From assembly GCA_001899285.1 (NCBI GenBank), contig MKWA01000022.1, positions 62,001 to 126,000 of the forward strand: 64,000 nt of DNA. Reading direction: 5' to 3'. Numbering within the stretch: position 1 is the stretch's first letter; the number at the start of each line of letters is the position of its first letter. The notes under the pieces are model-generated. The model saw only the letters and a list, made by a program, of their open reading frames with translations, had not been told where the DNA came from and ran no database searches. This stretch comes from Rhizobiales bacterium 64-17. GTDB taxonomy: Bacteria > Pseudomonadota > Alphaproteobacteria > Rhizobiales > Xanthobacteraceae. The translations under genes were made by a program, and so were the position numbers. Positions 3,245 to 19,687 of this stretch are shown here, in pieces.

Positions 3245-3257
3245 TGGAAGCCCGCGC

Positions 3258-4364: not shown

Positions 4365-5978
4365 TTATCGCTTGCTGCGCGACACCGGGCCGCGATCGAA
4401 CGTCGTTGTGGTGACGCCGCGCTCGCGCAGCTTGAATTTCTGCACCTTGCCGTTCTCGGTCGCCGGCAGAACTGTCATGAATTCCAGATAGCGGGGGACC
4501 GCGAAATAGGCGAGGCGCGGTTCGCAATAGGCGATCAATTCCGCCGGCGCCAGCGACGTACCGTCGCGCAGGATCACCGCCGCCATCACCTCGTCCTCGG
4601 CAAGCTCGGAGCGCACCGGGAACACGGCGGCATTGGCGACCGCTGGATGACTGAGCAGCACCTGCTCGACTTCGTAGGATGAGATGTTCTCGCCGCGCCG
4701 GCGGATCGCGTCCTTGACGCGATCGACGAAGCGGAAATAGCCGTCCGGCTGCCGGATGACGCGATCGCCGGTATGAAACCAGAGATTGCGCCACGCTTCC
4801 ACGGTCTTGTCATCGGCGCCGAAATAGCCGGTGGCGAAGGCGAACGGATCGTCGGCACGGACGACCAGTTCGCCGGCGATGCCATCCGGCACCGGATTGT
4901 CCTGATCGTCGACCACGCGCGCATCGAAGCCGTCGAATGCCGGACCCATGCAGCCGGGCTGCTGATGGTCGATCGGCGCGCCGATGGCGAAATTGGTCTC
5001 GGTGGAGGCCCAGCCTTCCAGCAAGCGGATACCGGTGCGCGCGGTGAAATCGCCGTGGAAGCGCGCCGGCACGCCTGGCGCGAGCGCGACGCGCGTGCGG
5101 TGGTTGCGCTCGGCCGCATCGGGCGTGCGCGACAGCAGGATCGGGACCATGGCGCCGAGCAGGAACGTCACGGTTGCGTTCGAGCGCGTCAGCGCGTCGA
5201 AGAATCCGGATGCGGAGAAGCGCGTCTCGTAGTGGACATGGCCGCCGATCAGCAGCGCTTGATAAAAAGTGTTGAGCGCATTGGTGTGAAACAGCGGCAA
5301 AGTGGTCGAGAGCACGTCGCCCTCGCGCAATTCCAGCAGCGAGGCGGTATTGACGCCCCACCAGAAATATTGCCCGTGCGGGCAGCACACGCCTTTCGAC
5401 AGGCCGGTGGTTCCGGAGGTGTACAGGATCAATGCCATATCGCCGGGCCGCACGGGGGCCGGCGGGAGCGGCGCGGCATCGCGCGGCATCGGCGCGATGG
5501 TCGCGGGCAGCGCGATCGACGCGGATGCGCCGATGGTCCAGATCGTGTCAAGGGCGAGGGTCGCCGGGTCGAGCAGCGCGAGATTGTCGGCGAAGCTGGT
5601 TTCGAGCACGAGCAGGCGTGCGCCGCTGTTCGACAGCATGTGCTGAAGCTGCGGCCCGCGCGAGGCAGTGTTGAGCGGCACCAGCACTGCGCCGAGCCAG
5701 GCGCAGCCGAGCAACAGCTCGATGAATTCGATCCGGTTCGAGCAGATGATGGCGACGCGGTTGCCGGCGCGTACGCCTGCCGCATGCAAGGCACCGGCAC
5801 AGCGGGCCGCGGCAGCGCAGGCGGCATCATAAGTGAGGGTAGTGTCCCCGAACGTAACCAGCGGCGCGCCGCCGTTCTTGCCAGCCTGACGCTGCAGCAT
5901 CGCCGTCAGCGTGCGTTCCTCCGGCGAGAAGGCGCCGATCCAGTGTCGTCGTAACGTGGACGCGCCGGTCTGCTTCAT
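4365..5978 (-). CDS. AMP-forming acyl-CoA synthetase (CaiC/long-chain-fatty-acid ligase type)
   Basis: A 537-residue adenylate-forming ligase that would make an acyl-CoA from a free acid, ATP and CoA. The P-loop-like AMP motif is [13 protein letters not shown], the A5 motif is [12 protein letters not shown], and the hinge/A8 region reads [10 protein letters not shown] then [19 protein letters not shown]. The C-terminal catalytic Lys (A10) is likely in [12 protein letters not shown]. Its start ATG overlaps the stop of the LivF gene (5975-5978), so ligase and transporter are co-translated and the ligase probably activates the imported substrate. It resembles crotonobetaine/carnitine-CoA ligases in layout, but specificity cannot be assigned. 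A second ligase of the same superfamily sits in the divergent operon at 14121. Confidence 0.88.
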
Positions 5979-6697
5979 TCCACTTTGCCGCCGAGATAGC
6001 TGGCGATGACCTTCGGATCATGGATCAGACCGGAGGCCGGCCCGCTGTGGACGATGCTGCCGGTCTCCAGCACATAGCCGTAGTCGGCGGTTTCCAGCGC
6101 GGCGCGGGCGTTCTGTTCGACCAGCAGGATCGACACGCCGAGTTCGCGCAGGCTCATGACGATCCGGAAAATCTCGCGCACGATCAGCGGCGCGAGGCCG
6201 AGGCTCGGTTCGTCGAGCAGCAGCAGGCGCGGCTTCGCCATCAGCGCACGGCCGAGCGCCAGCATCTGCCGCTCGCCGCCGGAGAGCGTGCCGGCGAGCT
6301 GCGTGCGCCGCTCCGCGAGCCGCGGGAAGCGGGCATAGACCTGGTCGAGTTCGGCGTCGAGCGATTTACGGTTGGTCCAGTGGGTATAGGCGCCGAGGAT
6401 CAGATTGTCGGCGACCGTCATCTCCGTGAACAGTTCGCGGCTTTCCGGCACCAGGCAGATGCCGCGGCGGACACGCTCCTCGGTGCCGAAGCGGCGCATG
6501 TCGGCGCCGTCATAGCGCACCGTGCCGGTGGAGGGCAGAAGGCCCATGATGGCCGCGAGCATCGTCGTCTTGCCGGCGCCGTTCGGGCCGATCACGGTGA
6601 CGATCTGCCCGGTCTGCATCTCCAGCGAGACACCGCTGACGGCCTCGACCTTGCCGTAAGCGACGTGCAGATCCTCGACGGCGAGAAGCGTGCTCAT
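5975..6697 (-). CDS. livF: Branched-chain amino acid-type ABC transporter ATPase (LivF)
   Basis: A 240-residue ATPase of the high-affinity branched-chain amino acid/aromatic acid importer class. Walker A is GPNGAGKTT, the signature is [15 protein letters not shown] and Walker B is [11 protein letters not shown]. The [10 protein letters not shown] wording is typical for LivF rather than LivG. It overlaps the fused LivM-LivG gene upstream by four bases (6694-6697) and the CoA ligase downstream by four. In Hyphomicrobiales such systems often carry aromatic acids or amides rather than leucine, so the gene symbol indicates family only. Confidence 0.88.
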
Positions 6698-8463
6698 GCA
6701 ACGCCTCCGAGATAGGCTTCCTGCACGCGCGCGTCGGCACGGATGAGGGCTGGCTCGCCCTCGGCGAGTTTGGCGCCGAAATCGACGACGACGATGCGGT
6801 CGACCAGGTTCATGACGAATTCCATGTCGTGCTCGACCAGCACGATGGTCATGCCCTCGGCGCGCAAGCCGCGCAGCAGGTCGGACAGGGTCTGCTTCTC
6901 GAGACGGCGCAGGCCGGCGGCCGGCTCGTCGAGGATCATCAACGTCGGATCGGCGGCGAGCGCCCGTGCGACCTCGAGCAGACGTTGTTGGCCGAGTGCG
7001 AGATTGCCGGCGAGATCACCATATTTCCCGCCGAGACCGACGCGCTGCAACTGCCGCAATGCCTCATGGCGCGCCGAGGCTTCTTCCTTGCGGTCGAGCC
7101 GCAACGCGCCGGTGAGGAATCCGGCGCCGGTGCGCGGATAGAGGCCGAGCATCACGTTGTCGATGCAGGTCATGTTGGGGCGCAGCTTCACATGCTGGAA
7201 GGTGCGCGCCATGCCGGCGGCGGCGATGCGCCGCGACGGCAGCGTGGTGATGTCGGTCCCCTGAAAGCGGATGGTGCCGCTGTTTGGTTTCAGTACGCCG
7301 GTGATCAGGTTGAGCAGCGTGCTCTTGCCGGCGCCGTTCGGACCGATCAGGCCGAGCACCTCGCCGGATCGCACCTCGAAGCTGACGTCGTTGACGGCAA
7401 TGAGCGCGCCGAACCGCTTCACCGCATTCCGCACGCTCAGGACGGGGTTTTGTGCCGCCGTCTGCTGATGCGCGCGCGGCGGTAGCGCCGGCGCATCGAC
7501 CACCGGTCGGGGCTTCGGTCGCGGCAGCAGGCGCTTGATCATCAGCACGACGCCGCCGCGCGCTTTTTGCAGCAACACGATGAACAGCACGCCGAACACG
7601 ACCACTTCGAGCTGCGCGCTGTAGCGGGTGAAGGCCGGCAGCACGTCCTGCAGGATGTTCTTGATCAGCGTGACGATGGCCGAGCCGATCACTGCGCCGA
7701 CGATCTGCCCGGCGCCGCCGACCAGCGCCATCAGCAGAAGTTCGATGCCGGCGCGCACGTCGAACGGGGCGGGGCCAACGTAACGTTGCACATGCGCGTA
7801 GAGCCAGCCCGACAGGCCGGCGAGCACGCCGCCGAGCACGAACACGGCAAGCCGCATCCGGAACGCATTGATCGCCAGACTCTCGACCAGCGCGGTTCCG
7901 CCGCGCAGCGCGCGAATGGCGCGGCCCTGTCGCGAGTCGAGCAGGTTGTGACAGAGCAGCATCGCCAGGCCGAGGACGATCCAGCAGAAGTAATAGGCAG
8001 CCGTGGTGCCCTCGAACGATAGCTGGCCGATACGGATCGCAGGAATGCCCGACAGGCCGCTATAGCGGCCGAGCATGTCGAGATTGCCGAACAGGAAGAA
8101 GATCGCGATGCCCCAGGCGATGGTGCTCAATGGCAGGAAATGACCGCTCAATCGCAGCGTCGCGGCGCCGAGCACGGTGGCGACGATCGCGGTCATGGCG
8201 AGCGACAGGATGAGGCCGATCCACGGCGAGCCGCCCTGTGTCGCGGTGTACCAGGCGGTCGCGTAGGCACCGATGCCGACGAAGGCGGCCTGTCCGAACG
8301 ATGTGAGCCCGCCGACGCCGGTGAGCAACACGAGGCCGAGCGTCGCCATGGCGTAGATGGCGATGTAGTTCAGCAGGGTGATGGTGAAGCTGCCGAACAG
8401 GAACGGCGCCGCCGCCAGAAAGGCGATTGCGAGAGCGAAAAGGAGGCGCGTGATCGCGGGCAT
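6694..8463 (-). CDS. Fused ABC permease-ATPase (LivM-LivG)
   Basis: A 589-residue protein joining two transporter parts. Residues about 1-310 are a multi-helix LivM-type permease (for example [20 protein letters not shown], the conserved GxxSxGQAAF loop). Residues about 345-589 are a LivG ATPase with Walker [12 protein letters not shown], signature [15 protein letters not shown] and Walker [12 protein letters not shown]. The linker around residues 310-345 is basic and Pro-rich. LivM-LivG fusions occur in several alphaproteobacterial clusters. One chain supplies one permease and one nucleotide-binding domain, and pairs with LivH and LivF. Start and stop overlap both neighbours by four or one bases, so the operon is tightly coupled. 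Confidence 0.88.
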
Positions 8464-9530
8464 CAGGCTTGCCCCTCGCTCTCGTCTTCCTCGATCTCTT
8501 CCTCGACGCCGGTGTGCGAGGTGAAGGACTGCCAGACCAGGATCGGGATCAGTGACGAGAAGACGATCACTTCCTTGAGCGCGCTATCCCAGAACGAGGC
8601 GAAGCTCTCGAAGATGCCGACCAGGATGGCGCCGACTGCGGTCGCCGGATAGCTGACGAGGCCGCCGATGATGGCGCCGACAAAAGCCTTCAGGCCGATC
8701 AGAAAGCCGGAGTCGTAGTAAAGCGTGGCGATCGGCCCGATCAGGATGCCGGAAATGGCGGCGAGCAGCGACGCGATCAGGAACGCCGTGGCGCCTGTGG
8801 TCGAGGGCAAGATGCCGACCAGCCGCGCGCCGACGCGGTTCACCGCTGTGGCCCGCAGCGCCTTGCCGATCAGCGTGCGCTCGAACACGAGATAGAGCAG
8901 GAAGCTGAACAGCGCCGACGACACAACGATCAGGATGCTCTGGCCGGAAATGGTCAGCGCGCCAAGATCGAAGAAGGCGCGGGTCATCGGCTCGGTGCGG
9001 AAGCCTTCCGGACCGAAATACAGGAGCGCAAGCCCCGACATCGCAAAGTGTACGGCCACCGCGACAATCAGCAGTACCAGCACCGACGCATCGGCGAGGG
9101 GCCGGAATGCGATACGATAGAGCAGCGGCGAGATCGGCAGCACCACCGCGACGGTGAGCAGCGTGGCAAGCCACATCGGCAGCGCGTGCATCGACGCAAA
9201 ATACACCACGGCCGCCGGCAGGATCGGCAGCACGGCGTAGAACAGCAGCGCGCGCGGAATGCGGTGTGCGTCGCCCTGCCGGGCGAGGCTCACGACTTCC
9301 ATCACGGTGGCGATCGCGGCCAGTGTCAGCACCAGCCAGACGGTGCCGGGCATCTGTCCGAGCTGCAGCGCCGCGAGCGTCAGCGCCGCATAGCCGACCA
9401 CGTCGCCGAACGGCACGAAGATGACGCGGGTGACGAGGAAGATCAGCACGATCCCCAGCGCGACCAGCACATAGATCGCACCGGTGGAGATGCCGTCCTG
9501 CACCAGCAGCAGGGCGATCTCCCACGTCAT
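8463..9530 (-). CDS. livH: Branched-chain amino acid-type ABC transporter permease (LivH)
   Basis: A 355-residue inner-membrane permease. The N-terminus GISTGAIYVLVALGIVLIF matches LivH, and the LivH-type loop FVGAIIGGLVSYPATAVGAILVG is near the C-terminus. It is some 50 residues longer than classic LivH because of an extra hydrophobic segment around residues 60-120 and an acidic tail rich in Glu. It starts at an ATG at 9530, about 115 bases downstream of the binding-protein stop, with a GC-rich hairpin in the gap (9554-9577) that could lower expression of the membrane genes relative to the binding protein. Confidence 0.85.
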   Translation of the reverse strand: MTWEIALLLVQDGISTGAIYVLVALGIVLIFLVTRVIFVPFGDVVGYAALTLAALQLGQMPGTVWLVLTLAAIATVMEVVSLARQGDAHRIPRALLFYAVLPILPAAVVYFASMHALPMWLATLLTVAVVLPISPLLYRIAFRPLADASVLVLLIVAVAVHFAMSGLALLYFGPEGFRTEPMTRAFFDLGALTISGQSILIVVSSALFSFLLYLVFERTLIGKALRATAVNRVGARLVGILPSTTGATAFLIASLLAAISGILIGPIATLYYDSGFLIGLKAFVGAIIGGLVSYPATAVGAILVGIFESFASFWDSALKEVIVFSSLIPILVWQSFTSHTGVEEEIEEDESEGQA

Positions 9531-9645: not shown

Positions 9646-10794
9646 TTACTTCAACAGCTTCCACTTCCCGTCCTGCAACTGGACGAGCACACGCGCGCGC
9701 TCATCGACGCCGAACGGGCTGCCGGGCTTGAAGTTGTAGACGCCGTGGGTGCCGACCACTTCCTTGGTCGCCAGCATGGCGTCGCGGAAGGCTTCGCGGA
9801 ACTGCGGTGTGCCCGGCTGCGCCTTCTGCAGCGCACGCTTGGCCGCGTCAGCGAATACCAGCCAGGCGTCGAACGAATAGGCCGAGAAGGCGTCGCCGGT
9901 GGGCGCGTTATTGACCTTCTGATAGACGTCGCGGAATGCCAGCGAAATCTTCTTGGTCGGGTTGCTGTCGGGCAACTGCTCGGCGACGATCACTGGGCCG
10001 GTCGGCGCGATCACACCGTTGACCGCCTTGCCACCGACGCGGACGAAGTCCGGATTGATCAGCGCGTGGGTGCCGTAGAGGCCGCCCTTGAAGCCGCGCT
10101 CGGCTAGCGCGAGATAGGGCAGCGCGCCTGGCGTGCCCGAACCGCCGGTGATGACGGCATCCGGGCGCGCGGCGATGATCTTCAGGGTTTGCCCCGTGAC
10201 GGAGGTATCGGCGCGCGCATAGCGCTCGTTGGTGACGACCTCGATGTTCTTGCTTGGCGCGTTCTGCGTCAGCGCGCTGTAGACCAGATCGCCCCAGGAA
10301 TCGCTGAAGCCGATATAGGCGGCGCGCTTCACCTTGTCCTGTGCCATGCGCTCGACCACGGCGGCGACCATCAGCGGCGGCGGCTGCGGAATGGAGATCA
10401 GCCACTGGCCGTTCGGGCTCTGTGGCTGGGTGGCAGGGGTGAGCGAGATGATCGGGGTCTTGGTTTCGGCGGCGACCACGGCCATGGCGATGGTGCCGGG
10501 CACCCCGGACGTGCCCATCAGCACGTCGACTTTTTCTTCTTCCACCAGCTTGCGCGCGTTGCGGGTCGCTGCGGACGGATCGGAGGCGTCGTCGAGCCGG
10601 ATCAGCTTGACCTTCACGTCGCCGATCTTGCTGGCATAGGCTTCGCCGGCGAGAATTCCTTTTTCGTACGGGATGCCGATCGAGGCGCCCGGCCCGCTGA
10701 GGGAGGTGACAAAACCGACGGTGATATCCGCGGCGGAGACGGCCGTGACCGACACGAGCACGGACGCGGCGGCGACGCACAGACGCGACAACAT
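9646..10794 (-). CDS. ABC transporter substrate-binding protein (Leu/Ile/Val-binding, Peripla_BP_6 family)
   Basis: A 382-residue periplasmic binding protein for the liv-type importer. The N-terminus is a clear Sec signal (MLSRLCVAAASVLVSVTAVS, cleavage after ...SA before ADITVG). The mature part begins with the family start VGFVTSLSGPGASIGIPYEKG, and LMGTSGVPGTIA and the later YDAWL-like region follow the type I periplasmic fold. The ATG at 10794 is preceded by a good GGGAGG ribosome-binding site; a start 36 codons upstream would spoil the signal peptide. It is the first gene of the leftward operon. Ligand is unknown; aromatic acids or auxin-like compounds would fit the divergent dioxygenase operon. 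Confidence 0.9.
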   Translation of the reverse strand: MLSRLCVAAASVLVSVTAVSAADITVGFVTSLSGPGASIGIPYEKGILAGEAYASKIGDVKVKLIRLDDASDPSAATRNARKLVEEEKVDVLMGTSGVPGTIAMAVVAAETKTPIISLTPATQPQSPNGQWLISIPQPPPLMVAAVVERMAQDKVKRAAYIGFSDSWGDLVYSALTQNAPSKNIEVVTNERYARADTSVTGQTLKIIAARPDAVITGGSGTPGALPYLALAERGFKGGLYGTHALINPDFVRVGGKAVNGVIAPTGPVIVAEQLPDSNPTKKISLAFRDVYQKVNNAPTGDAFSAYSFDAWLVFADAAKRALQKAQPGTPQFREAFRDAMLATKEVVGTHGVYNFKPGSPFGVDERARVLVQLQDGKWKLLK

Positions 10795-10837
10795 GATTGA
10801 TCCTCCCAAACTGAGCCTCTGGACGAGCCCAGCAATT

Positions 10838-10871
10838 ACTTTAACTTTAAAACTTCTGTCGGGGCTGGCAA
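10838..10871 (-). promoter_or_regulatory. Candidate sigma-70-type promoter for the binding-protein operon
   Basis: Read on the minus strand, TTGCCA (10871-10866) is followed after 16 bases by TAAAGT (10849-10844), and a second TAAAGT follows immediately (10843-10838). It lies about 45-75 bases before the binding-protein ATG. The match to the housekeeping consensus is fair and the AT-rich block stands out from the surrounding GC-rich DNA. This is a visual match only. Confidence 0.35.
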
Positions 10872-11293
10872 GCGCCTTTGCAATTCGGCTCTTGAGGGTC
10901 ATCCAGCATCAGAAGATGCGCCGCACAGGTCCGCGCGGAAGGCGATATCGATTGCGAGACTTGCAGGATTTGTTGCGTGACCAGCACGATCGATCGCCAC
11001 GGAATTGTGACGGATATCGTCGTGCCTCGTATCGTTGCGACGCGTGACGCGCAACACGTCATCACGACAGCGCGTGACAAATAACGATGTGCCCGAGGTA
11101 AAATACGGCCGTGTCGCGACAACCCGCCCACCGGCCGGGCAATGGAATATCTCCGGTCACTGCGCGGGATAAGCCGCGCGGGGCGCAAGGCGGTCGCGAT
11201 GCCCGATCTCTCCGGTGGCGGAATACCGTGTTGCCATTCCCGGCGCCGCGCCGTCAGATCGTCGCCGGTGTGCGCCGGCATTGCGCCGGCCAA

Positions 11294-11311
11294 TATTTTA
11301 TATTTAAAATA
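11294..11311. promoter_or_regulatory. AT-rich inverted repeat abutting the dioxygenase reductase start
   Basis: The sequence TATTTTA-TATT-TAAAATA is a perfect seven-base inverted repeat with a four-base spacer, ending five bases before the ATG at 11317. In this GC-rich genome an 18-base block made only of A and T is striking. It could be an operator for a MarR/TetR-like repressor, or contain the minus-10 element of a leaderless transcript, since no ribosome-binding site is visible between it and the ATG. Confidence 0.45.
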
Positions 11312-11316
11312 ATCCG

Positions 11317-12291
11317 ATGCCGCAGGATGGTCGTCTCGAACTGGTCGTTACGGATGTGGAAAGCGTCACCCCGCTGATCCGCGCCATTCGGCTGGCGCGA
11401 CCGCACCAGGAGCCCTTGCCGTCCTGGGAACCGGGGGCGCATCTCAAGGTGCGCATCGGCGGCAATGATGAACGCTCCTATTCGCTGATCAATGCGTCTA
11501 CCGATCCCGCGGCTTGCACCCACCCGAAATCCTATCGGCTCGGCATCCGGCTCGAAACACCGAGCCAGGGCGGCTCAGTCTACATGCACGCCTTGAAATC
11601 CGGTGACACCGTGTCGGTGACGCCGCCGAGCAACAATTTCCCGCTCGAGCCGACCGGCAAGCCGGTGGTGCTGGTGGCCGGCGGCATCGGCGTCACGCCG
11701 ATCGTGTCGATGGCGGCGGCGCTGCAGGCGGCGGGTCATCCTTACCGGTTCTATTACGCCGGCCGTGCCCGCGACCAACTGGCATTCCTGCCGGAGATCG
11801 AGGCGCTGACCGGCGGCCATCTCACCGTACACACCGACGACACCGCGCGGGGTTTCTTCGATCTCGCCGGGCTGATGGGGTCGCTCGCTGGCGACGAGCC
11901 GCTGTATTGCTGCGGGCCGCTGCCGATGATCGAAGCGGCGATCGCCACGGCGAAGACGCTCGGCTGGGCGCCGGGCCGGCTGCATTTCGAGATTTTCACC
12001 GCCGCGGCGCCGCAAGCGGGCGATCAGGCGTTCGAGGTGGTGCTCAACAGCACCGGTGAAAGCTTCATCGTGCCTCCGGGAAAGTCCGTACTCGACGTGT
12101 TGATCGAGGCGGGCAAGGATCCGCTTTATGATTGCAAGCGCGGCGATTGCGGGATCTGCCAGGTCGGCGTGATCGAGGGAACGCCCGACCACCGCGATTT
12201 CATTCTGTCCGACAGCGAGAAGGCGTCGGGCAAGCTGATGCAGATTTGCGTGTCGCGCGCCAAGACGCCGCGTCTGGTGCTGGATTTGTAA
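11317..12291 (+). CDS. Oxygenase reductase with FMN/FAD, NAD and C-terminal 2Fe-2S ferredoxin domains
   Basis: A 324-residue electron-transfer protein that would pass electrons from NAD(P)H to the adjacent Rieske oxygenase. The flavin motif is RSYSL (residues 53-57), the nucleotide-binding motif is GGIGVTP (122-128), and the plant-type 2Fe-2S cluster is C-terminal with C273, C278, C281 and C311. This is the phthalate-dioxygenase-reductase/vanillate-demethylase layout (class IA). The ATG at 11317 is the first start that gives the family's N-terminus, but no Shine-Dalgarno is visible, so leaderless translation is possible. Partners that follow are the oxygenase alpha and beta subunits. Confidence 0.9.
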   Translation: MPQDGRLELVVTDVESVTPLIRAIRLARPHQEPLPSWEPGAHLKVRIGGNDERSYSLINASTDPAACTHPKSYRLGIRLETPSQGGSVYMHALKSGDTVSVTPPSNNFPLEPTGKPVVLVAGGIGVTPIVSMAAALQAAGHPYRFYYAGRARDQLAFLPEIEALTGGHLTVHTDDTARGFFDLAGLMGSLAGDEPLYCCGPLPMIEAAIATAKTLGWAPGRLHFEIFTAAAPQAGDQAFEVVLNSTGESFIVPPGKSVLDVLIEAGKDPLYDCKRGDCGICQVGVIEGTPDHRDFILSDSEKASGKLMQICVSRAKTPRLVLDL

Positions 12292-12308
12292 GACGACAGG
12301 AGGCAGCG

Positions 12309-13622
12309 ATGGACCGTTATCGTGGCAATGCGGACGCCGTCAAAGGGCTTATCCGCGACACCGAGGTGCATCGCGACGTCTATATCGACGACGAGGTGTT
12401 TCAACTCGAGATGGAGCACCTGTTCGCCAACACCTGGGTTTATGTTGGACATGACAGTCAGGTGGCCAATCCGGGCGATTATTTCGGCACCACCATCGGT
12501 GCGCAGCCGGTGCTGATGGTGCGTCACACCGACAAGACGGTGAAAGTTCTCTACAACCGCTGCCCGCACAAGGGTACGCGCATCACTACCGAGGCCTGCG
12601 GAAATACAGGCAAGTTCTTCCGCTGCCCGTATCACGCCTGGAGTTTCCGCACCGACGGCTCGCTGCTCGCGATCCCGCTGAAGAAGGGTTACGAGAACAC
12701 CGGCTTCGAAGGCAGCCATGCTGCCAAGGGCATGACGCCGGTGAAGCATGTGCACAATTACCGCGGCTTTGTGTTCGCCAAGCTGAACGACGGCGGACCC
12801 GGCTTCGAGGAGTTCTTCGGCGACAGCCTGTCGAGCTTTGACAACATGGTCGATCGCTCGCCGGTCGGCAAACTCGAAGTCGCCGGCGGCGTGCTGCGCT
12901 ACATGCACAACTGCAACTGGAAGATGCTGGTCGAGAACCAGACCGACACCTGCCACCCGATGGTGGCGCATGAATCATCGGCAGGAACCGCGATCAGCGT
13001 GTTCGACAAACAGCCGCCCGGCACCAAGAAGCCGATGGCGGTGGAGATCTATGCGCCGTTCATGGCGCCGTACGAGTTCTTCGAGAACATGGGCATCCGC
13101 GTCTGGCCGAACGGCCACGGCCATACCGGCGTGCATCACTCGATCCACTCCGACTATTCCGCCATTCCCGGCTATTTCGAGAAAATGGTCGCGGCCTATG
13201 GCGAGGAGCGCGCCAAGGCGATCCTCGGGGAGAATCGTCACAACACGGTCTATTTCCCCAATCTGATGATCAAGGGTCCGATCCAGCTCATCCGTCTGTT
13301 CAAGCCGATTGCCGCCAACAAGACGCTGGTGGAATCCTGGACGTTCCGGCTGGTGGATGCGCCCGACATGCTCTTGGAGCGCACCTTGATGTACAACCGG
13401 CTGATCAATGCGCCGACCTCGGTGGTCGGCCATGACGATCTCGAAATGTACGAGCGCGCACAGGAAGGGCTGCACGTCGACGCCAATCAATGGGTCAACG
13501 TGCAGCGGCTCTACGATGTGGCCGAGCCGCCGGACGCGACCGCGGAAACCAACGGCACGACGGAATGGCAGATGCGCAATCAGTTCCGGGCCTGGTCGAA
13601 ATTCATGACCCTGTCGATGTGA
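12309..13622 (+). CDS. Rieske ring-hydroxylating dioxygenase, alpha subunit
   Basis: A 437-residue catalytic subunit. The Rieske 2Fe-2S ligands are C85-P-H87 and C106-P-Y-H109. The mononuclear iron site is visible as D213-T-C-H216-P-M-V-A-H221, with the remaining carboxylate expected further on. It would dihydroxylate, or mono-oxygenate and decarboxylate, an aromatic or indolic acid in the cytoplasm. The ATG at 12309 follows a strong AGGAGG site; a longer open frame overlapping the reductase gene is not supported. Sequence style is of the benzoate/anthranilate/salicylate oxygenase group. Together with the beta subunit, CoA ligase and isatin-hydrolase-like gene it may act on indole-3-acetate, as in known auxin-degrading Rieske systems; this last point is inference. 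Confidence 0.92.
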   Translation: MDRYRGNADAVKGLIRDTEVHRDVYIDDEVFQLEMEHLFANTWVYVGHDSQVANPGDYFGTTIGAQPVLMVRHTDKTVKVLYNRCPHKGTRITTEACGNTGKFFRCPYHAWSFRTDGSLLAIPLKKGYENTGFEGSHAAKGMTPVKHVHNYRGFVFAKLNDGGPGFEEFFGDSLSSFDNMVDRSPVGKLEVAGGVLRYMHNCNWKMLVENQTDTCHPMVAHESSAGTAISVFDKQPPGTKKPMAVEIYAPFMAPYEFFENMGIRVWPNGHGHTGVHHSIHSDYSAIPGYFEKMVAAYGEERAKAILGENRHNTVYFPNLMIKGPIQLIRLFKPIAANKTLVESWTFRLVDAPDMLLERTLMYNRLINAPTSVVGHDDLEMYERAQEGLHVDANQWVNVQRLYDVAEPPDATAETNGTTEWQMRNQFRAWSKFMTLSM

Positions 13623-13632
13623 GGATGCGGCC

Positions 13633-14115
13633 GTGACAACGCCCAGCGACCAGCAATTGATCGAGTTCGTCCAGCGTGAGGCGCGGCTGATTGATCAGCA
13701 CCGGTTCGAGGAGTGGCTCGAACTGTTCACCGATGATGGCATGTACTGGATGCCGCTCGAATGGGGGCAGACCGACCCGAAGCTGACGACTTCGCTGATG
13801 TACGAGGACAAGCTGCTGCTGACGATCCGGGTCGAGCGGCTGAAGGGCAATCGCACCTTCTCGCAGAAGCCGAAAAGCCGCTGTCACCATCTGCTGCAGA
13901 CGTCGCAGATTGACCGGCGCGACGAGGCCAACAACGAATACGTCACCTGGACACCGATGCATTATGTCGAGACGCGGTTCGACGAGCAGCAGCTCTATGC
14001 CGCGTGGGTGACGCATACGCTGACGGTGAAAGACGGTGCGCTGCGCATCAAGCTCAAGCGCGTCGATCTGGTGAACTGCGACGCCGCATTCGGCAATATC
14101 CAGCTCTTCATGTGA
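13633..14115 (+). CDS. Ring-hydroxylating dioxygenase, beta subunit
   Basis: A 160-residue small subunit of the SnoaL-like fold that builds the alpha3beta3 oxygenase. The N-terminus reads DQQLIEFVQREARLIDQHRF and the hallmark WMPL sequence is at YWMPLEWGQ. It starts with GTG at 13633, 10 bases after the alpha-subunit stop, and ends just before the CoA ligase. It has no catalytic role in the known family; it shapes the hexamer. Confidence 0.9.
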   Translation: MTTPSDQQLIEFVQREARLIDQHRFEEWLELFTDDGMYWMPLEWGQTDPKLTTSLMYEDKLLLTIRVERLKGNRTFSQKPKSRCHHLLQTSQIDRRDEANNEYVTWTPMHYVETRFDEQQLYAAWVTHTLTVKDGALRIKLKRVDLVNCDAAFGNIQLFM

Positions 14116-14120
14116 TCGGC

Positions 14121-15764
14121 ATGCAGCTTCCGGCCGATAGCCCGCAGAGCGTCTACGATCTGTTCAGCCGGCAGGCGGCGCGGGTGCCACAGCGCGCGTT
14201 CCTGTGCGTGCTGCCGGAGACGGCGCTGGCTTACGGGATCGCGGCCTGCGAAGTGACTTATGGCGAGGCGTACGCTACCGTCGAGCGGTTGCGCGCTGCC
14301 TATGCCGCAGCGGGCTATCGCGCCGGGCAGCGCGTGGCGATGCTCTTGGAAAACCGGCCAGCCTACTTCCTGCACTGGTTCGCGCTCAACGCCCTCGGCG
14401 TGTCGGTGGTGCCGCTCAATCCGGATATGCGCGCGGCCGAACTGGAATATGTGCTCGGCCATTCGGATGCCGTCGGCGTCGTGGCGATTCCTGCGCGGCA
14501 TGCCGGTTTGCGCGCGGCGGCACAGGCAATCGGTCGCGCGATCCCGGTGTTCGGTCCCGACGACGCGCCTCAGCCGCCATTTGCGGGTGAGGTGAGCGCG
14601 CCGGACGCGGGCCGCGATACCGAATGTGCGTTGCTCTACACCTCTGGCACCACCGGCAAGCCGAAAGGCTGCGTGCTGCCGAACGAATATTTCCTCTATG
14701 CCGGTCACTGGTACGTGACGGCCGGCGGGCTGATCGCGTTTCGTGACGACGGCGAGCGGATGCTCACCCCGCTGCCGGTGTTCCACATGAACGCCATGGC
14801 CTATTCGGCGATGGCGATGCTCGCGGTCGGCGGCTGCCTGATCCCGCTCGACCGCTTCCATCCGAAGACCTGGTGGCAAAGCGTGCGCGCCAGCCGCGCC
14901 AGCATCGTCCATTATCTCGGTGTGATGCCGCCGATGCTGATGGGCGCGCCGGAGAGCAAGGAAGATCGTTCGCACCATGTGCGGTTCGGTTTCGGCGCGG
15001 GCGTCGACCGGGCGCTGCATGCGCCATTCGAGGCCCGCTTTGGTTTTCCGCTGATCGAGGCGTGGGCGATGACCGAAACCGGCGCCGGCGCGGTGGTGGT
15101 CGCGGCGCGCGAGCCGCGCCATGTGGGCACGAGCTGTTTCGGTCGGCCGGGCCCCGAACTCGAAACCCGCATCGTCGATGAAGCGGACGCCGACGTGTCG
15201 CAGGGCGAACCGGGCGAACTGCTGGTGCGCCACGCGGGCGACGCGGCGCGCTACGGCTTCTTCCGTCGCTATCTGAAAGACCCGGATGCCACCGCGCAGG
15301 CGTGGGCGGGCGGCTGGTTCCACACCGGCGACGTGGTGCGGCAGGACGCGGACGGCGCGATGCACTTCGTGGATCGCCGCAAGAATGTGATCCGCCGCTC
15401 CGGCGAGAACATCTCCGCCGTCGAGGTGGAGAGCGTGCTGATGCAGCATCCGGCGGTGCGGCAGGTGGCCGTAGCACCGGTGGCCGATCCTGTGCGCGGC
15501 GATGAGGTGTTCGCCTGCATCGTCACCCATCAGCCGGCGGCGGACCGTGCGGCGCGCGAACGGGTGGCGGGGGAGATCGTCGCCTGGTGTCTGACGCGGC
15601 TCGCTTATTACAAGGCGCCGGGCTATGTCGGTTTTGTGCCGGAGATCGCTTTGACCTCGACCCAGAAGATCCAGCGCGGCAATTTGAAGGACATGGTTGC
15701 CGGCCTTGTCGGCGGTGACGCCTGCGTCGATACGCGCGCGCTGAAACGGCGGACCGCAGCATGA
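14121..15764 (+). CDS. AMP-forming acyl-CoA synthetase in dioxygenase operon
   Basis: A 547-residue adenylate-forming ligase. Motifs are [38 protein letters not shown] and RRKNVIRRSGENISAVEVE; the C-terminal Lys is probably in STQKIQRGNLKD. I start it at the ATG at 14121; a GTG at 14112 overlapping the beta-subunit stop would add only three residues. Its place directly after the oxygenase and before the thiolase-like gene implies that the oxygenated product becomes a CoA thioester before carbon-carbon cleavage. Its stop overlaps the next start (15761-15764). Specificity is unknown. Confidence 0.88.
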   Translation: MQLPADSPQSVYDLFSRQAARVPQRAFLCVLPETALAYGIAACEVTYGEAYATVERLRAAYAAAGYRAGQRVAMLLENRPAYFLHWFALNALGVSVVPLNPDMRAAELEYVLGHSDAVGVVAIPARHAGLRAAAQAIGRAIPVFGPDDAPQPPFAGEVSAPDAGRDTECALLYTSGTTGKPKGCVLPNEYFLYAGHWYVTAGGLIAFRDDGERMLTPLPVFHMNAMAYSAMAMLAVGGCLIPLDRFHPKTWWQSVRASRASIVHYLGVMPPMLMGAPESKEDRSHHVRFGFGAGVDRALHAPFEARFGFPLIEAWAMTETGAGAVVVAAREPRHVGTSCFGRPGPELETRIVDEADADVSQGEPGELLVRHAGDAARYGFFRRYLKDPDATAQAWAGGWFHTGDVVRQDADGAMHFVDRRKNVIRRSGENISAVEVESVLMQHPAVRQVAVAPVADPVRGDEVFACIVTHQPAADRAARERVAGEIVAWCLTRLAYYKAPGYVGFVPEIALTSTQKIQRGNLKDMVAGLVGGDACVDTRALKRRTAA

Positions 15765-16930
15765 CGCATCGCCGTGCCGCCTACGACAACATCGTCATCT
15801 GCGCGCCGGTGACGATCCCCTATCGTCGCTATTCCACGCACAGCGCGCATTGGTGGCTCGGCCGGTCACTGCACGAGCTGACCCGCGCCGCCGGCATCAC
15901 GCCGAAGGATATCGATGGTCTCACGGTGTCGAGCTTCACCGTCGGCCCTGACACGGCGATCGGTCTGACCCAGCATTTCGGCCTGTCGCCGCGCTGGCTC
16001 GATCACATTCCGTTCGGCGGCGCGAGCGGCGTCGTGGCGCTGCGCCGTGCCGCGCGCGCGGTGCAGGCGGGGGACGCCGACATCGTCGCCTGTATCTCCG
16101 GCGACACCAATCACGTCGACTCGTTCCGTAAGACGCTGTCGACCTTTTCGCGGTTCGCCCAGGACGCCGTCTATCCCTACGGTTCCGGCGGTGCCAACTC
16201 TTCGTTCGCGCTTATTACCAAGCACTACATGAATCTCTACGGCGCGAAGCGTGAGGATTTCGGCAAACTGTGTATCGCGCAACGCGACAACGCGCTGTCA
16301 ATCCCGTTCGCGATGATGAAGAAGAAACTGACGCTCGACGAATATATGTCGGCGCGGCCGATCGCTGATCCGGTGCATCTGTTCGATTGCGTCATGCCCT
16401 GTGCCGGCGCGGAAGCCGTACTGGTCTGCCGCGAGGACACCGCGAAATCGCTCGGTCTTCCCATGGTGCGCATGCTCGCCACCATCGAGCGGCACAATGC
16501 GTTCGGCGGCGATGTGATCCAGCATCGTGGTGGCTGGGAGGTGGACATCGGCGAGCTTTGGGCCATGGCCGGCATGAGGCCCTCCGATGTGAGCTTGGTG
16601 GAAACCTATGACGACTATCCGGTGATCGTCATGATGCAGTTCGAAGATCTCGGCTTCTGCAAGAAGGGCGAGGGGCCGGATTTCGTGCGCGGCCATACCT
16701 TCACCAATGACGGCACGTTCCCGCACAACACGTCGGGCGGTCAATTATCGACCGGGCAGGCGGGCGCGGCCGGAGGCTTTCTCGGCCTGACCGACGCGGT
16801 GCGGCAGCTCACCGATAGGCCGATCGGTACGGCAGTGGCGGATGCGCAGAGCGCTGTCATCTCCGGCTTCGGCATGATCAACTACGATCGCGGCCTGTCG
16901 TCGGCGGCCGCTGTGTTGGCGAGGGTCTGA
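15761..16930 (+). CDS. Thiolase-fold protein (SCP2-thiolase/Ltp2-like) without thiolase catalytic residues
   Basis: A 389-residue member of the nonspecific lipid-transfer/thiolase family. In true thiolases the nucleophile sits in a C-A-S-G-like motif; here residues 86-90 read GGASG, so Cys is replaced by Gly. The usual GHP motif is GQA (in STGQAGAAGG), and the C-terminal Cys region reads NYDRG. Loss of Cys and His with gained Tyr fits the aldolases Ltp2 and relatives, which pair with a DUF35 protein and split a beta-hydroxyacyl-CoA by retro-aldol reaction. The next gene encodes a DUF35 protein and overlaps by one base, which supports such a complex. A BbsB-type benzoylsuccinyl-CoA thiolase is an alternative. 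Confidence 0.85.
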   Translation: MTHRRAAYDNIVICAPVTIPYRRYSTHSAHWWLGRSLHELTRAAGITPKDIDGLTVSSFTVGPDTAIGLTQHFGLSPRWLDHIPFGGASGVVALRRAARAVQAGDADIVACISGDTNHVDSFRKTLSTFSRFAQDAVYPYGSGGANSSFALITKHYMNLYGAKREDFGKLCIAQRDNALSIPFAMMKKKLTLDEYMSARPIADPVHLFDCVMPCAGAEAVLVCREDTAKSLGLPMVRMLATIERHNAFGGDVIQHRGGWEVDIGELWAMAGMRPSDVSLVETYDDYPVIVMMQFEDLGFCKKGEGPDFVRGHTFTNDGTFPHNTSGGQLSTGQAGAAGGFLGLTDAVRQLTDRPIGTAVADAQSAVISGFGMINYDRGLSSAAAVLARV

Positions 16931-18171
16931 TGACGACGCCGCTCACGCGCCCGAAACGCAAGAACCCGCTCAAGCGCACGCGCCTGCCGCTCAACCCGCA
17001 GGGCGTGCGCAGCCGCACCGCGCATGGCCTCACGGCGGCGGCGGCGGAAGGCCGCTTCGCGCTTCAGGTGTGCGAGGACTGCAAGACGGTGATCTATCCG
17101 CCGCGGGACTGCTGCCCGAATTGCCTGTCCGCGCGGCTGCCGTTCCGTGACGTGCCGCGCGGCGGCATGCTGGTGGCGGAAACGACCGTGCGTACGTCGA
17201 CCGATCCCTATTTCCGCGAGCGCACGCCGTGGCGCGTCGGCAGCGTCAAGCTCGACGCCGGGCCTGTGATCGTCGCGCATCTGCACGGCGACACCGTGGA
17301 AGGCGCGCGCGTGCGGCTCGAATTCAAGCTCGACAAGAGCGGCGCGGCGGTGGCGCTCGCTCTGCCGGAACAGGATACGCCCCATATGGCTGACGACCCC
17401 CATCTGCGCGAGATGACCTGCGATCCGAAATTCCGCCGCGTGCTGATCACCGATGGTCGTACCGAGGTGGGGCAGGCGATGGCCAAGGCGTTCTCCGACG
17501 CCGGCGCGAACATTGTGTTCGTCGGCATCGCCGACCAGTGGAAGCCGTTTCCGGGGATGGACAAGCTGCGGCAGATCGAGCGCGTCGAGATCGTGCCGCT
17601 CGACGTCACCGACACCGAATCCGTCACCGAGCAGGCGGAGCAGAACGGGTCGCGTATCGACATCATCGTCAACACGGCGGAGCATGTGCGTGCCGGCGGC
17701 ATCGTCGATCGCCATGGTCTCACTGTCGCGCGCGAGGAGATCGACGTACGCTATCTCGGCCTGATGCGGCTCGCGCAGGCATTCGGTCCGGTGATGCGCT
17801 TCCGCGGCGCCGACGGCGTCAATTCGGCGGCGGCATTCGTCAATCTGTTATCGGTGCACGCACTGATGAACTGGCCGACCTACGGCGCCTATTCGGCGGC
17901 CGAGGCGGCGTGCCTGTCAGCGGCGCAATGCATGCGGGCCGAACTGCGGCCGGGCGGCGTCAAGGTGCTCAACGTGTTCTTCGGCCCGCTGGAGACCGAA
18001 TGGTTCCAGACCGTGCCGCCGCCGAAGGTGACGCCGGCGGCTTTGGCGAAGGCGGTGGTGCGCGGCTTGCAGCAGGGCATCGAGGATGTGTTCGTCGGCG
18101 ATATCGCCGAAGACATCCGCGCGCGGCTTGCGGTCAATCCGAAAGCGCTCGAACGCGAAATGGCAGGTTAG
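16930..18171 (+). CDS. DUF35 zinc-ribbon/OB-fold protein fused to a degenerate short-chain dehydrogenase
   Basis: A 413-residue two-domain protein. Residues about 40-150 are a DUF35 module: a rubredoxin-like zinc ribbon with C48, C51, C62 and C65 (an extra C61), then an OB-fold. Residues about 168-413 have the short-chain dehydrogenase fold, but the catalytic features are broken. The nucleotide motif reads TDGRTEVG (174-181) instead of TGxxxGxG, and the Ser-Tyr-Lys set is S308, Y321 and Glu at 325 where Lys is required. The SDR half is therefore probably a scaffold. DUF35 proteins are obligate partners of thiolase-fold enzymes, which matches the upstream gene. In anaerobic toluene degradation separate BbsA (DUF35) and inactive BbsC (SDR) are known; a fusion of the two ideas is unusual. 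Confidence 0.85.
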   Translation: MTTPLTRPKRKNPLKRTRLPLNPQGVRSRTAHGLTAAAAEGRFALQVCEDCKTVIYPPRDCCPNCLSARLPFRDVPRGGMLVAETTVRTSTDPYFRERTPWRVGSVKLDAGPVIVAHLHGDTVEGARVRLEFKLDKSGAAVALALPEQDTPHMADDPHLREMTCDPKFRRVLITDGRTEVGQAMAKAFSDAGANIVFVGIADQWKPFPGMDKLRQIERVEIVPLDVTDTESVTEQAEQNGSRIDIIVNTAEHVRAGGIVDRHGLTVAREEIDVRYLGLMRLAQAFGPVMRFRGADGVNSAAAFVNLLSVHALMNWPTYGAYSAAEAACLSAAQCMRAELRPGGVKVLNVFFGPLETEWFQTVPPPKVTPAALAKAVVRGLQQGIEDVFVGDIAEDIRARLAVNPKALEREMAG

Positions 18172-18179
18172 GAGAAATT

Positions 18180-18962
18180 ATGCCGACCGATGTGCTTGCC
18201 TTCGCCCGCGATATCGCCGCCGGCGCCGTGCGCGTGATCGATCTCACGCAGACGCTGTCGCAGGACTTTCCGATCATCACGTTGCCGCCGGAGCTTGGTC
18301 AGTGTGCGCCGTTCCGCATCGAGGAAGTGTCGCGCTACGACGAGCGCGGCCCGGCCTGGTACTGGAATAACATCTCGCTCGGTGAGCACACCGGAACGCA
18401 TTTCGATGCGCCGATCCACTGGATTTCCGGCAAGGATCTGCCGAACAACGCGGTCGACACCATCGATGTGCGCAAGTTCATTGCGCCTGCGGTGGTGATC
18501 GATTGCTCGAAAGAATGCGCCGCCGACCCGGACTTCGCGCTGACGATTCCGTTCGTTGAAGCGTGGGAGGCAAAGCACGGCAAGATCCCGCCGGGCCATT
18601 GGGTGCTGCTGCGCACTGACTGGTCGAAGCAGAGCTTCACCGACTACGCTAATCTGCGCGATGACGGCGCGCATACACCCGGCCCGGAGCCGAAAGTGGT
18701 CAAGTGGTTCGTCGAGGAGCGCGACGTGCATGGCTTCGGCACCGAGACGATCGGCACCGACTTCGGGCAGGGGCATCATTTCAATCCGCCGTTCCCGGCG
18801 CATTTCTACATGCACGGCAAGGGCCGGTTTGGCCTGCAATGCCTGACCAATCTCGATCTGCTGCCGCCGAAAGGCGCAGTGATCGTCGCCGCGCCCTTAA
18901 AGATCAAGCAGGGCTCGGGTAGCCCGCTGCGGGTGCTCGCTTTGGTGTCGGGGGAGAAATGA
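18180..18962 (+). CDS. Cyclase-family metal hydrolase, isatin hydrolase-like
   Basis: A 260-residue hydrolase of the cyclase/kynurenine-formamidase family (PF04199). The metal motif HxGTHxDAPxH is complete as H70, H74, D76 and H80. The following stretch, with IAPAVVIDCSKE and ADPDF, then PPGHWVLLRTDW, reads much like bacterial isatin hydrolase as I remember it, an Mn-dependent enzyme that opens isatin to isatinate. An AGGAG site precedes the ATG. It overlaps the SDR gene downstream (ATGA at 18959-18962). If the assignment is right, the operon makes isatin or a related cyclic amide. A formamidase or lactone hydrolase role is the main alternative. Confidence 0.8.
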   Translation: MPTDVLAFARDIAAGAVRVIDLTQTLSQDFPIITLPPELGQCAPFRIEEVSRYDERGPAWYWNNISLGEHTGTHFDAPIHWISGKDLPNNAVDTIDVRKFIAPAVVIDCSKECAADPDFALTIPFVEAWEAKHGKIPPGHWVLLRTDWSKQSFTDYANLRDDGAHTPGPEPKVVKWFVEERDVHGFGTETIGTDFGQGHHFNPPFPAHFYMHGKGRFGLQCLTNLDLLPPKGAVIVAAPLKIKQGSGSPLRVLALVSGEK

Positions 18963-19687
18963 CCCAGCCTGTCGCGATCGTCACCGGCGGCTCGACCGGT
19001 ATCGGCGCGGAACTGTGCCGGCAGATGCTGGAGCGCGGCTACGAGGTGATCTCGCTGGCGCGGCGCAAGCCGCCGATCAGCGACGCGCACCTGCATGCGA
19101 TGGAAGTCGATCTGTTCGACAATGCCGCGACTGAGCAGGCGGCGCGCGAGGTCGCGACGCAGCGTCAGGTGACGCATTTCATCCATAACGCCGGGCTGAT
19201 CCGCCCGGCTTTACTACCCGACGTGACGCAGGATGATCTCGCGGCGGTGACGCAACTGCATCTCGGCGCGGCGCTGACCATCATGCAGGCGGTGCTGCCG
19301 GGCATGCGACAGCAACATTTCGGCCGCGTCGTGCTGCTGTCGTCGCGCGGTGCGCTTGGCCTTCAGACTCGCTCGGTCTATTCCGCGACCAAGGCAGGCA
19401 TGATCGGCATGGCGCGCACCTGGGCGCTGGAAACGGCGGCCGACGGCATCACCGTCAACGTGGTGGCGCCGGGACCGATCGCCGACACCGAGATGTTCCG
19501 CAGCGTCATTCCGGCGGAGAGCGAGCGCGAGAAGGCGCTGGCGGCGCAGATCCCGGTGAAGCGGCTTGGCCGCAGCGACGATGTCGCGCGCGCGGTGCTG
19601 TTCTTTTGCGATGCGGAGAACGGCTTCGTCACCGGGCAGACGCTCTATGTATGCGGCGGCGCCAGCGTCGGCACGCTGACGATTTAG
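18959..19687 (+). CDS. Short-chain dehydrogenase/reductase (catalytically intact)
   Basis: A 242-residue NAD(P)-dependent SDR. The cofactor motif is TGGSTGIG (residues 9-16), NAG is at 77-79, and the catalytic set S128, Y141, K145 is complete. It is the last gene of the dioxygenase operon and overlaps the hydrolase gene by four bases. It may oxidise a hydroxylated intermediate (for example dioxindole to isatin), or be the active partner of the degenerate SDR domain encoded at 16930-18171, as BbsD is for BbsC. Its stop overlaps the convergent folD stop. Confidence 0.88.
   Translation: MTQPVAIVTGGSTGIGAELCRQMLERGYEVISLARRKPPISDAHLHAMEVDLFDNAATEQAAREVATQRQVTHFIHNAGLIRPALLPDVTQDDLAAVTQLHLGAALTIMQAVLPGMRQQHFGRVVLLSSRGALGLQTRSVYSATKAGMIGMARTWALETAADGITVNVVAPGPIADTEMFRSVIPAESEREKALAAQIPVKRLGRSDDVARAVLFFCDAENGFVTGQTLYVCGGASVGTLTI

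Follow-up and report, generated by a model that had tools for sequence, protein, structure and literature searches.

An iad-type auxin degradation operon in Rhizobiales bacterium 64-17, with a candidate retro-aldol step for side-chain removal

We analysed a 64,000-nucleotide stretch of the genome of Rhizobiales bacterium 64-17 (GenBank assembly GCA_001899285.1, contig MKWA01000022.1, positions 62,001 to 126,000 of the forward strand; hereafter the window, numbered from its first letter), and are concerned here with the divergent locus at 9646-19687. Its rightward genes, at 11317-19687, make up a tight operon that by sequence matches, gene for gene, the Variovorax iadC-D-E-F-G-H-I-J genes for degradation of the auxin indole-3-acetic acid (IAA). 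From the gene content, homology, residue conservation, fold matches and co-occurrence that we observed, we consider it probable, at roughly 0.8, that this is an iad-type IAA degradation locus in which IadG and IadH remove the acetyl side chain by a retro-aldol reaction and the resulting isatin is then hydrolysed.

Gene content of the locus

The divergent binding protein gene and the eight genes of the operon are as follows.

9646-10902, minus strand: periplasmic binding protein, IadK2-like (530 bits to PDB 7ylt)
11317-12291, plus strand: IadC-like reductase (315 bits to 7ylr; 180 bits to phthalate dioxygenase reductase 2pia)
12309-13622, plus strand: IadD, Rieske oxygenase alpha subunit (636 bits to 9o71)
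13633-14115, plus strand: IadE, oxygenase beta subunit (Ring_hydroxyl_B; 53% identical to Variovorax sp. EL159)
14112-15764, plus strand: IadF, acyl-coenzyme A (acyl-CoA) ligase, proposed dioxindole-3-acetate:CoA ligase (AMP-binding; 60% identical to Variovorax sp. EL159)
15761-16930, plus strand: IadG, thiolase-fold protein, proposed dioxindole-3-acetyl-CoA aldolase (Y283-D-D-Y, G87, Q333)
16930-18171, plus strand: IadH, DUF35 (Cys4 zinc ribbon and OB fold) fused to a degenerate short-chain dehydrogenase/reductase (SDR) (zf-ChsH2, TDGRTEVG, NTAE, YSAAE)
18180-18962, plus strand: IadI, cyclase-fold protein, predicted isatin hydrolase (HTGTHFDAPIH ... D194 ... H208 ... GLQC)
18959-19687, plus strand: IadJ, canonical SDR dehydrogenase (intact TGGSTGIG and YSATK; 66% identical to Variovorax sp. 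EL159)

Given these starts, the overlaps are of 4 bases at E/F, F/G and I/J and of 1 base at G/H; IadF begins with a GTG at 14112, and an alternative in-frame ATG lies at 14121. The genes, folds and start-stop overlaps that a first-pass annotation had listed for this DNA are confirmed by the open reading frames and their domains. Its "DUF35 protein" does contain a DUF35 domain but is not a standalone one, the fusion with an SDR-like domain having been overlooked.

Relationship to known iad loci

Among solved relatives, IadD scores 636 bits against 9o71 and 622 against 7yls; scores then drop to 163 bits, for a phenylpropionate dioxygenase, and to 148 or below, for biphenyl dioxygenases. We take 7ylr, 7yls and 7ylt to be the Variovorax IadC, IadD and IadK2 structures of PMC10374108; the codes do not occur in the searched text of that paper, and the residue numbering agrees. 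Entry 9o71 is reported to be IadDE of V. paradoxus CL014 (PMC12633357). PMC10374108 lists, for Variovorax IadD, the ligands of the cluster and of the iron and nine residues of the IAA pocket. Of the 14 cofactor and pocket residues that we checked, 13 are conserved in IadD of the window: all five cofactor-only ligands, and eight of the nine pocket residues, with Gln standing for Leu211. With 9o71 as the nearest solved relative of IadD and isatin hydrolase A as that of the 18180 product, the assignment of the operon to auxin degradation, which the first-pass annotation had put forward as a possibility, is strong at the level of sequence.

The locus shares with the V. paradoxus iadC-K2 locus the same eight catabolic genes in the order C-D-E-F-G-H-I-J and an IadK2-like binding protein, its eight proteins being 47-67% identical to those of Variovorax sp. 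EL159 (locus L064). It differs in having a divergently transcribed binding protein and transporter, a second CoA ligase, octopine-dehydrogenase-like and hydroxyacyl-CoA dehydrogenase genes beyond that ligase, and Gln at position 211 of IadD. Variovorax-type loci have, further downstream, another Rieske alpha/beta pair that is 52% identical to IadD of the window (L064:17766-19552, plus strand; L056:4200-5977, minus strand).

The order C-D-E-(F)-G-H-I-J is found again in other genomes, including that of Variovorax sp. EL159. We counted IadD (E <= 1e-100) and IadH (E <= 1e-40) in 149 genomes of the same family, a set that includes the genome of the window and for which two draws were taken as identical, their handles agreeing; a 39%-identical Rieske protein of genome G052 was left out of the IadD count. 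Both proteins occur in 13 genomes, IadD alone in one (a fragmented assembly), IadH alone in seven and neither in 128 (Fisher p = 6e-13). Gene order was scored by eye in 37 IadH-bearing loci, which were gathered by IadD or IadH searches and are non-independent, some being near-identical. In 35 of these G lies directly upstream of H (the exceptions are L070, at a contig end, and L141), and in 35 I lies within 1 kb downstream of H on the same strand (the exceptions are L142 and L143); in L063, J sits between H and I. The recurring gene order and the co-occurrence of IadD with IadH thus indicate that the arrangement is not due to chance. A gene of the Asp/Glu/hydantoin-racemase family is present, again by eye, in 19 of the 37 loci (for example L059:8467-9261, plus strand, and L042:11220-12002, minus strand), and is absent from the window and from Variovorax L064.

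IadG has a thiolase fold without thiolase residues

IadG was aligned, in five rows, with four paralogues from its own genome. Three of the four carry the Cys of the thiolase NAC[AS][ST]G motif, the His of GHP and the HD motif, while IadG reads GGASG, GQA and YDDY at these places. Across 39 distinct IadG homologues, G87 (at the thiolase Cys position), Y283-D284-D285-Y286 and Q333 (at the thiolase His position) are each invariant, as is Cys210. With the Cys, the GHP His and the HDC/HDx motif of SCP2-type ketothiolases all replaced, IadG does not look like a member of that group.

The residues that it has gained point instead to the DUF35-dependent aldolases. In the bile acid aldolase Sal, Tyr302 and Cys304 of a YDCY motif are described as catalytic, Gly occupies the thiolase Cys position and Gln347 and Gln352 are possible helpers, whereas Ltp2 has a YDHF motif plus a second Tyr (PMC12329534). 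In our alignment IadG keeps the Tyr and both Gln residues of Sal, with Asp in the place of Cys304. Gly in place of the nucleophilic Cys and the presumptive base Y283 are found in 39 of 39 homologues, and in the same 39 the known second catalytic residue (the Cys of Sal or the second Tyr of Ltp2) is replaced by Asp285 and Gln333, so that we would say IadG works like Sal or Ltp2 rather than that it is one of them. Like both, it combines a thiolase fold with the Tyr of YD.. and a DUF35 partner, and like Sal it has Gly for Cys and the two Gln residues; unlike either, it has YDDY, and its proposed substrate is an oxindole.

An AlphaFold model of IadG, built from a 16-row alignment, has a mean predicted local distance difference test (pLDDT) score of 78. 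Its best fold match is the Sal-DUF35 aldolase 9myr (E 7.9e-30, template modelling score 0.82), and Ltp2 (6ok1) comes at rank 5, after three chains of a Pyrococcus thiolase. The loss and gain of residues in IadG, together with this fold, support the retro-aldol split by a thiolase-fold/DUF35 pair that the first-pass annotation had suggested. It had spoken of an Ltp2-like aldolase: the aldolase type stands, with the refinement that IadG is nearer to Sal, since both Gln residues are kept and the second Tyr is lacking.

IadH joins DUF35 to a degenerate dehydrogenase

The N-terminal part of IadH consists of zf-ChsH2 and an OB fold (OB_ChsH2_C) at residues 36-133, and an SDR-like domain follows at approximately 169-412. 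The four Cys residues of the zinc site are invariant in 40 of 40 homologues. The nucleotide motif of the second domain reads TDGRTEVG in the window, and [TS]GxxxGxG is departed from in 39 of the 40; it is also broken in Variovorax sp. EL159 (L064), which has TDGKTETG and FSASK. As a control, the SDR encoded by iadJ has [TS]GxxxGxG and YxxxK intact in 19 of 19 homologues. The C-terminal half of IadH thus lacks the TGxxxGxG and YxxxK signature expected of a catalytic SDR.

We had considered that the SDR halves of all IadH proteins are dead, and dropped this generalization because one copy, L143 (2654-3868, minus strand), keeps both motifs. L143 is the only such copy and an outlier at 37-39% identity; it adjoins an IadG-like gene and a CoA-transferase on a contig without isatin hydrolase, and may show the former role of the SDR half.

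A comparable arrangement has been described in steroid degradation, where Shy has DUF35 first and an enzyme domain second, its DUF35 binding the aldolase, and where ChsH2 has a fused MaoC domain without catalytic residues (PMC11321319). Judged by sequence, IadH repeats the Shy/ChsH2 design with another fold. As in Shy, DUF35 is N-terminal and the second domain C-terminal; unlike in the steroid partners, the second domain is a degenerate SDR and not a MaoC hydratase. The zinc ligands are Cys4, as in TcChsH2, and not Cys3His1, as in CtShy.

IadI is a predicted isatin hydrolase

Among solved relatives, IadI scores 389 bits against isatin hydrolase A. The residues with assigned roles in the Labrenzia aggregata enzyme (LaIHA) are His69, His73 and Asp75 (Mn), His79, His207, Asp193 and Gln219-Cys220 (PMC6117287). 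All of these, the metal-binding His, His and Asp, the catalytic His/His/Asp and GLQC, are present in IadI of the window, which agrees with isatin hydrolase A of L. aggregata and Ralstonia solanacearum in every catalytic residue. None of the six residues that bind metal or take part in catalysis varies among 38 homologues, and the Gln and the Cys of GLQC are each present in 34; in contrast to isatin hydrolase A, four of the 38, all elsewhere, do without the GLQC Gln. Kynurenine formamidase was rejected as an identity for the 18180 product, with scores of at most 27 bits and with Gln in place of Glu at the position that decides. IadI is therefore best regarded as a putative isatin hydrolase, as the first-pass annotation had supposed.

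Proposed pathway

In the pathway that we propose for this strain, IAA would enter by way of the IadK2-like binding protein and the neighbouring liv-type transporter. As published for Variovorax, IadCDE would then oxygenate the C2-C3 bond of the indole, and IadJ would oxidize the hydrated product to give dioxindole-3-acetate (DOAA). Either IadF or the second ligase would make DOAA-CoA, a tertiary beta-hydroxyacyl-CoA. Bound to the DUF35 domain of IadH, IadG would cleave DOAA-CoA by a retro-aldol reaction into isatin and acetyl-CoA, with Tyr283 acting as the base on the C3 hydroxyl and Asp285, which stands where Sal has its acid Cys304, perhaps serving as the acid. The SDR half of IadH would be non-catalytic, with a structural or scaffold role, and IadI would open isatin to isatinate, on the way to anthranilate.

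In Variovorax, deletions combined with liquid chromatography-mass spectrometry are reported to show that IadCDE and IadJ yield DOAA, and that anthranilate falls when F, G, H or I is lost (PMC12633357). In that 2025 preprint G is assigned from annotation as a ketothiolase, H as an alcohol dehydrogenase and I as a broad amidase, and the formulae given between IadI and anthranilate are C8H7NO3 and C7H7NO (PMC12633357). By formula arithmetic, isatin plus water is C8H7NO3, which minus CO2 is C7H7NO, and dioxindole plus water is C8H9NO3. Since the DOAA thioester is tertiary, it could not be oxidized to a ketoacyl-CoA for thiolysis, whereas retro-aldol cleavage would give isatin directly. Dioxindole, isatin and isatinic acid are reported from Variovorax cultures (PMC9613470). 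Accounts of the IadCDE product conflict, being oxIAA in the S10 legend of PMC10374108 and a proposed epoxide in PMC12633357.

The iad pathway and its isatin route are already published (PMC9613470, PMC12633357), and the newer part is the side-chain step. Of the novelty suggested in the first-pass annotation, what remains is the use of an aldolase for side-chain removal, which we did not find proposed in the open-access literature, subscription papers lying outside the search.

Evidence against the proposal, and alternatives

Several observations weigh against this proposal. We know of no enzyme assay of IadG or IadH, nor of any tested aldolase with Asp at the position of Sal Cys304. The Sal variants C304A, C304S and C304H are reported to be without detectable activity (PMC12329534), and the DUF35 domain is reported to be unimportant for Ltp2 activity (PMC11321319). 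The IadG model falls below a pLDDT of 50 at residues 327-334, which form part of the proposed site, and in other loops. GGASG and YDDY are shared by L147, a paralogue of about 40% identity that the same genome encodes away from the iad operon; the YDDY motif thus marks a wider group and is not diagnostic, and we dropped it as specific to iad proteins. L147 is perhaps another aldolase with a different substrate. Its gene (genome G000, contig C1; L155:9558-11011, minus strand) has a separate small zf-ChsH2 DUF35-like neighbour.

For IadH, both the Tyr and the Lys of YxxxK are kept in four of the 40 homologues (L063, L138, L143 and L144), and the SDR fold is well preserved: in the model (mean pLDDT 81.5), all 50 fold matches listed are SDRs, the first being 5u4s, which was solved with nicotinamide adenine dinucleotide phosphate. 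With the fold kept, it is the residues, and not the structure, that argue for loss of cofactor binding. The metabolite data are also discordant, as a Variovorax iadI deletion is reported to accumulate C8H7NO2, the formula of dioxindole, and not isatin, which its authors explain by reductive removal of the side chain (PMC12633357). This formula has two hydrogens more than isatin, and under our proposal would require that another enzyme reduces isatin when IadI is missing.

Read at face value, that accumulation and the annotation of both genes (PMC12633357), along with the preserved SDR fold, would favour a version of the same pathway in which IadG does work as a ketothiolase and IadH as a functional alcohol dehydrogenase, the acetyl group being removed reductively to leave dioxindole for hydrolysis by IadI. 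We think this improbable in view of the Gly and Gln that stand at the thiolase Cys and His in 39 of 39 IadG proteins, and of the broken nucleotide motif in 39 of 40 IadH proteins, Variovorax sp. EL159 included, against an intact one in 19 of 19 IadJ proteins. Moreover, IadI matches isatin hydrolase, and hydrolysed dioxindole would be C8H9NO3, whereas C8H7NO3 is the formula reported.

Further points on the contrary side concern marker genes, a regulator and the binding protein. The iadAB genes are described as exclusive iad markers (PMC9613470), and iadA and iadB (ior-type) were not found within the window; elsewhere in the genome, contig C8 carries an iadA homologue of 70% identity with an iorB-like gene just after it, and C5 carries one of 55%. 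An iad-type MarR regulator was likewise not found in the window; genome-wide, the closest MarR is 31% identical to the single MarR query used. MarRs at other iad loci are only 36-41% identical to the same query, so a diverged MarR outside the window may exist. The binding protein, aligned by eye to 7ylt with an inferred offset of 27 (which the listed residue Thr125 did not fit), has Val for Ser104 and Pro for Asn126, and IadK3, which is reported not to bind IAA, likewise has Val at 104 (PMC10374108). In the same alignment it keeps F168, W172, R199, F308 and Y311, whose changes impaired IAA binding by IadK2 most (PMC10374108). With Val104 and Pro126 beside five kept contacts, its ligand is likely, not certain, to be IAA.

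The operon might instead serve a related indole or oxindole acid, such as oxindole-3-acetate, chloro-IAA or indole-3-propionate, a reading that would accommodate L211Q in the IadD pocket, S104V and N126P in the binding protein, and the lack of a close match to the one iad-linked MarR query (best 31%). We regard it as unlikely, given that IadD has changed in just one of nine pocket residues and that the binding protein retains the five main contacts of IadK2. The Gln itself is common, occurring at position 211 in 14 of 17 IadD homologues, with Leu in L056, L063 and L064 (Variovorax). It is found in IadD of genomes G122 and G105 (L041 and L052), whose G-H-I blocks (L040 and L051) group with those of named Bradyrhizobium (L060 and L061) in a tree of G and H; B. 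japonicum USDA110 is reported to have an iad locus and to degrade IAA (PMC9613470). A steroid, phthalate or cumate side-chain pathway is hardly credible: the closest fold to IadG is that of a bile acid aldolase and the reductase is distantly akin to phthalate dioxygenase reductase, but iad or isatin enzymes are by a wide margin the nearer relatives for the oxygenase, the reductase, the binding protein and the hydrolase alike, and comparison with solved relatives led us to reject these readings.

G-H-I genes without iadD

The G-H-I genes also occur without the oxygenase. Four genomes (G765, G878, G429 and G335) have G-H-I, and no IadD better than 40% identical was found in them (E <= 1e-60). 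In six of the 37 IadH-bearing loci, a RutA/SfnG-like flavin monooxygenase of the luciferase family lies within about 8 kb of the G-H-I genes: L054 (3468-4559, minus strand), L062, L137, L139 (14071-15255, plus strand), L141 and L142. It is divergent in L139, where it adjoins F, in L141, where it adjoins G, and in L142, at 1.5 kb from G. Among solved structures it is closest to RutA; of the NCBIfam models SfnG scores best, at a level below cut-off. All six loci lack iadD, and no IadD was found at the thresholds used in their genomes G765, G035, G068, G071 and G081, the genome of L062 lying outside the search. In the tree of G and H the six loci fall in at least three places with high local support, the deep nodes being weak.

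Within the 149 genomes, IadH occurs in four of eight with the monooxygenase and in 16 of 141 without it, a weak association (p = 0.012), and one genome, G004, has the monooxygenase and IadD but no IadH; it is therefore the physical linkage in six of 37 loci that carries the argument. The monooxygenase is a possible alternative oxygenase for auxin or oxindole-acetate. Somewhat short of an even chance, in our estimate, is the broader idea that G-H-I is a transferable module for removing the acetyl arm of oxindoles, made up of a third-class (YDDY) DUF35-dependent thiolase-fold aldolase, a pseudo-dehydrogenase scaffold and an isatin hydrolase, and joined to different oxygenases.

Flanking genes

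Left of the 9646-19687 interval lie the liv genes, the second ligase and two dehydrogenase-like genes.

2255-3304, minus strand: hydroxyacyl-CoA dehydrogenase, left of the second ligase
3258-4352, minus strand: octopine-dehydrogenase-like gene, left of the second ligase
4365-5978, minus strand: second acyl-CoA ligase, PRK06155 family, past the liv cluster (810.6 bits against a cut-off of 722, NF004808)
5975-9530, minus strand: liv-type ATP-binding cassette transporter (ATPase, fused permease-ATPase and permease), read from open reading frames and kept beside iad genes elsewhere

The fused permease-ATPase, at 6694-8463, has BPD_transp_2 and ABC_tran domains. Homologues of the second ligase are the sole such ligase in the stretch examined around G-H-I in L042, L043, L044, L136 and L138. 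The pair of octopine/nopaline-dehydrogenase-like and hydroxyacyl-CoA dehydrogenase genes (2255-4352) recurs near iad-type genes in L041, L051, L060, L061 and L140, of which L060 and L061 are from named Bradyrhizobium. Right of the operon, a minus-strand gene reads by eye as folD, no family search having been run on it, and beyond it is a CoA-transferase-like gene that falls below family cut-offs; we take both to be outside the operon.

Implications

Bacteria that degrade auxin influence root growth, and strains used for plant growth are receiving iad genes (PMC12633357). In the literature consulted, the steps from dioxindole-3-acetate to isatinate are assigned by annotation. If the retro-aldol assignment is true, side-chain removal would be redox-neutral and there would be a reason for the pairing of IadG with a DUF35 protein. 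It would also bring a plant hormone within the range of an enzyme class described for steroids, and the residues named here would become testable. The G-H-I genes near a flavin monooxygenase, if they do act as a module, would represent an undescribed entry into the breakdown of auxin or oxindole-acetate.

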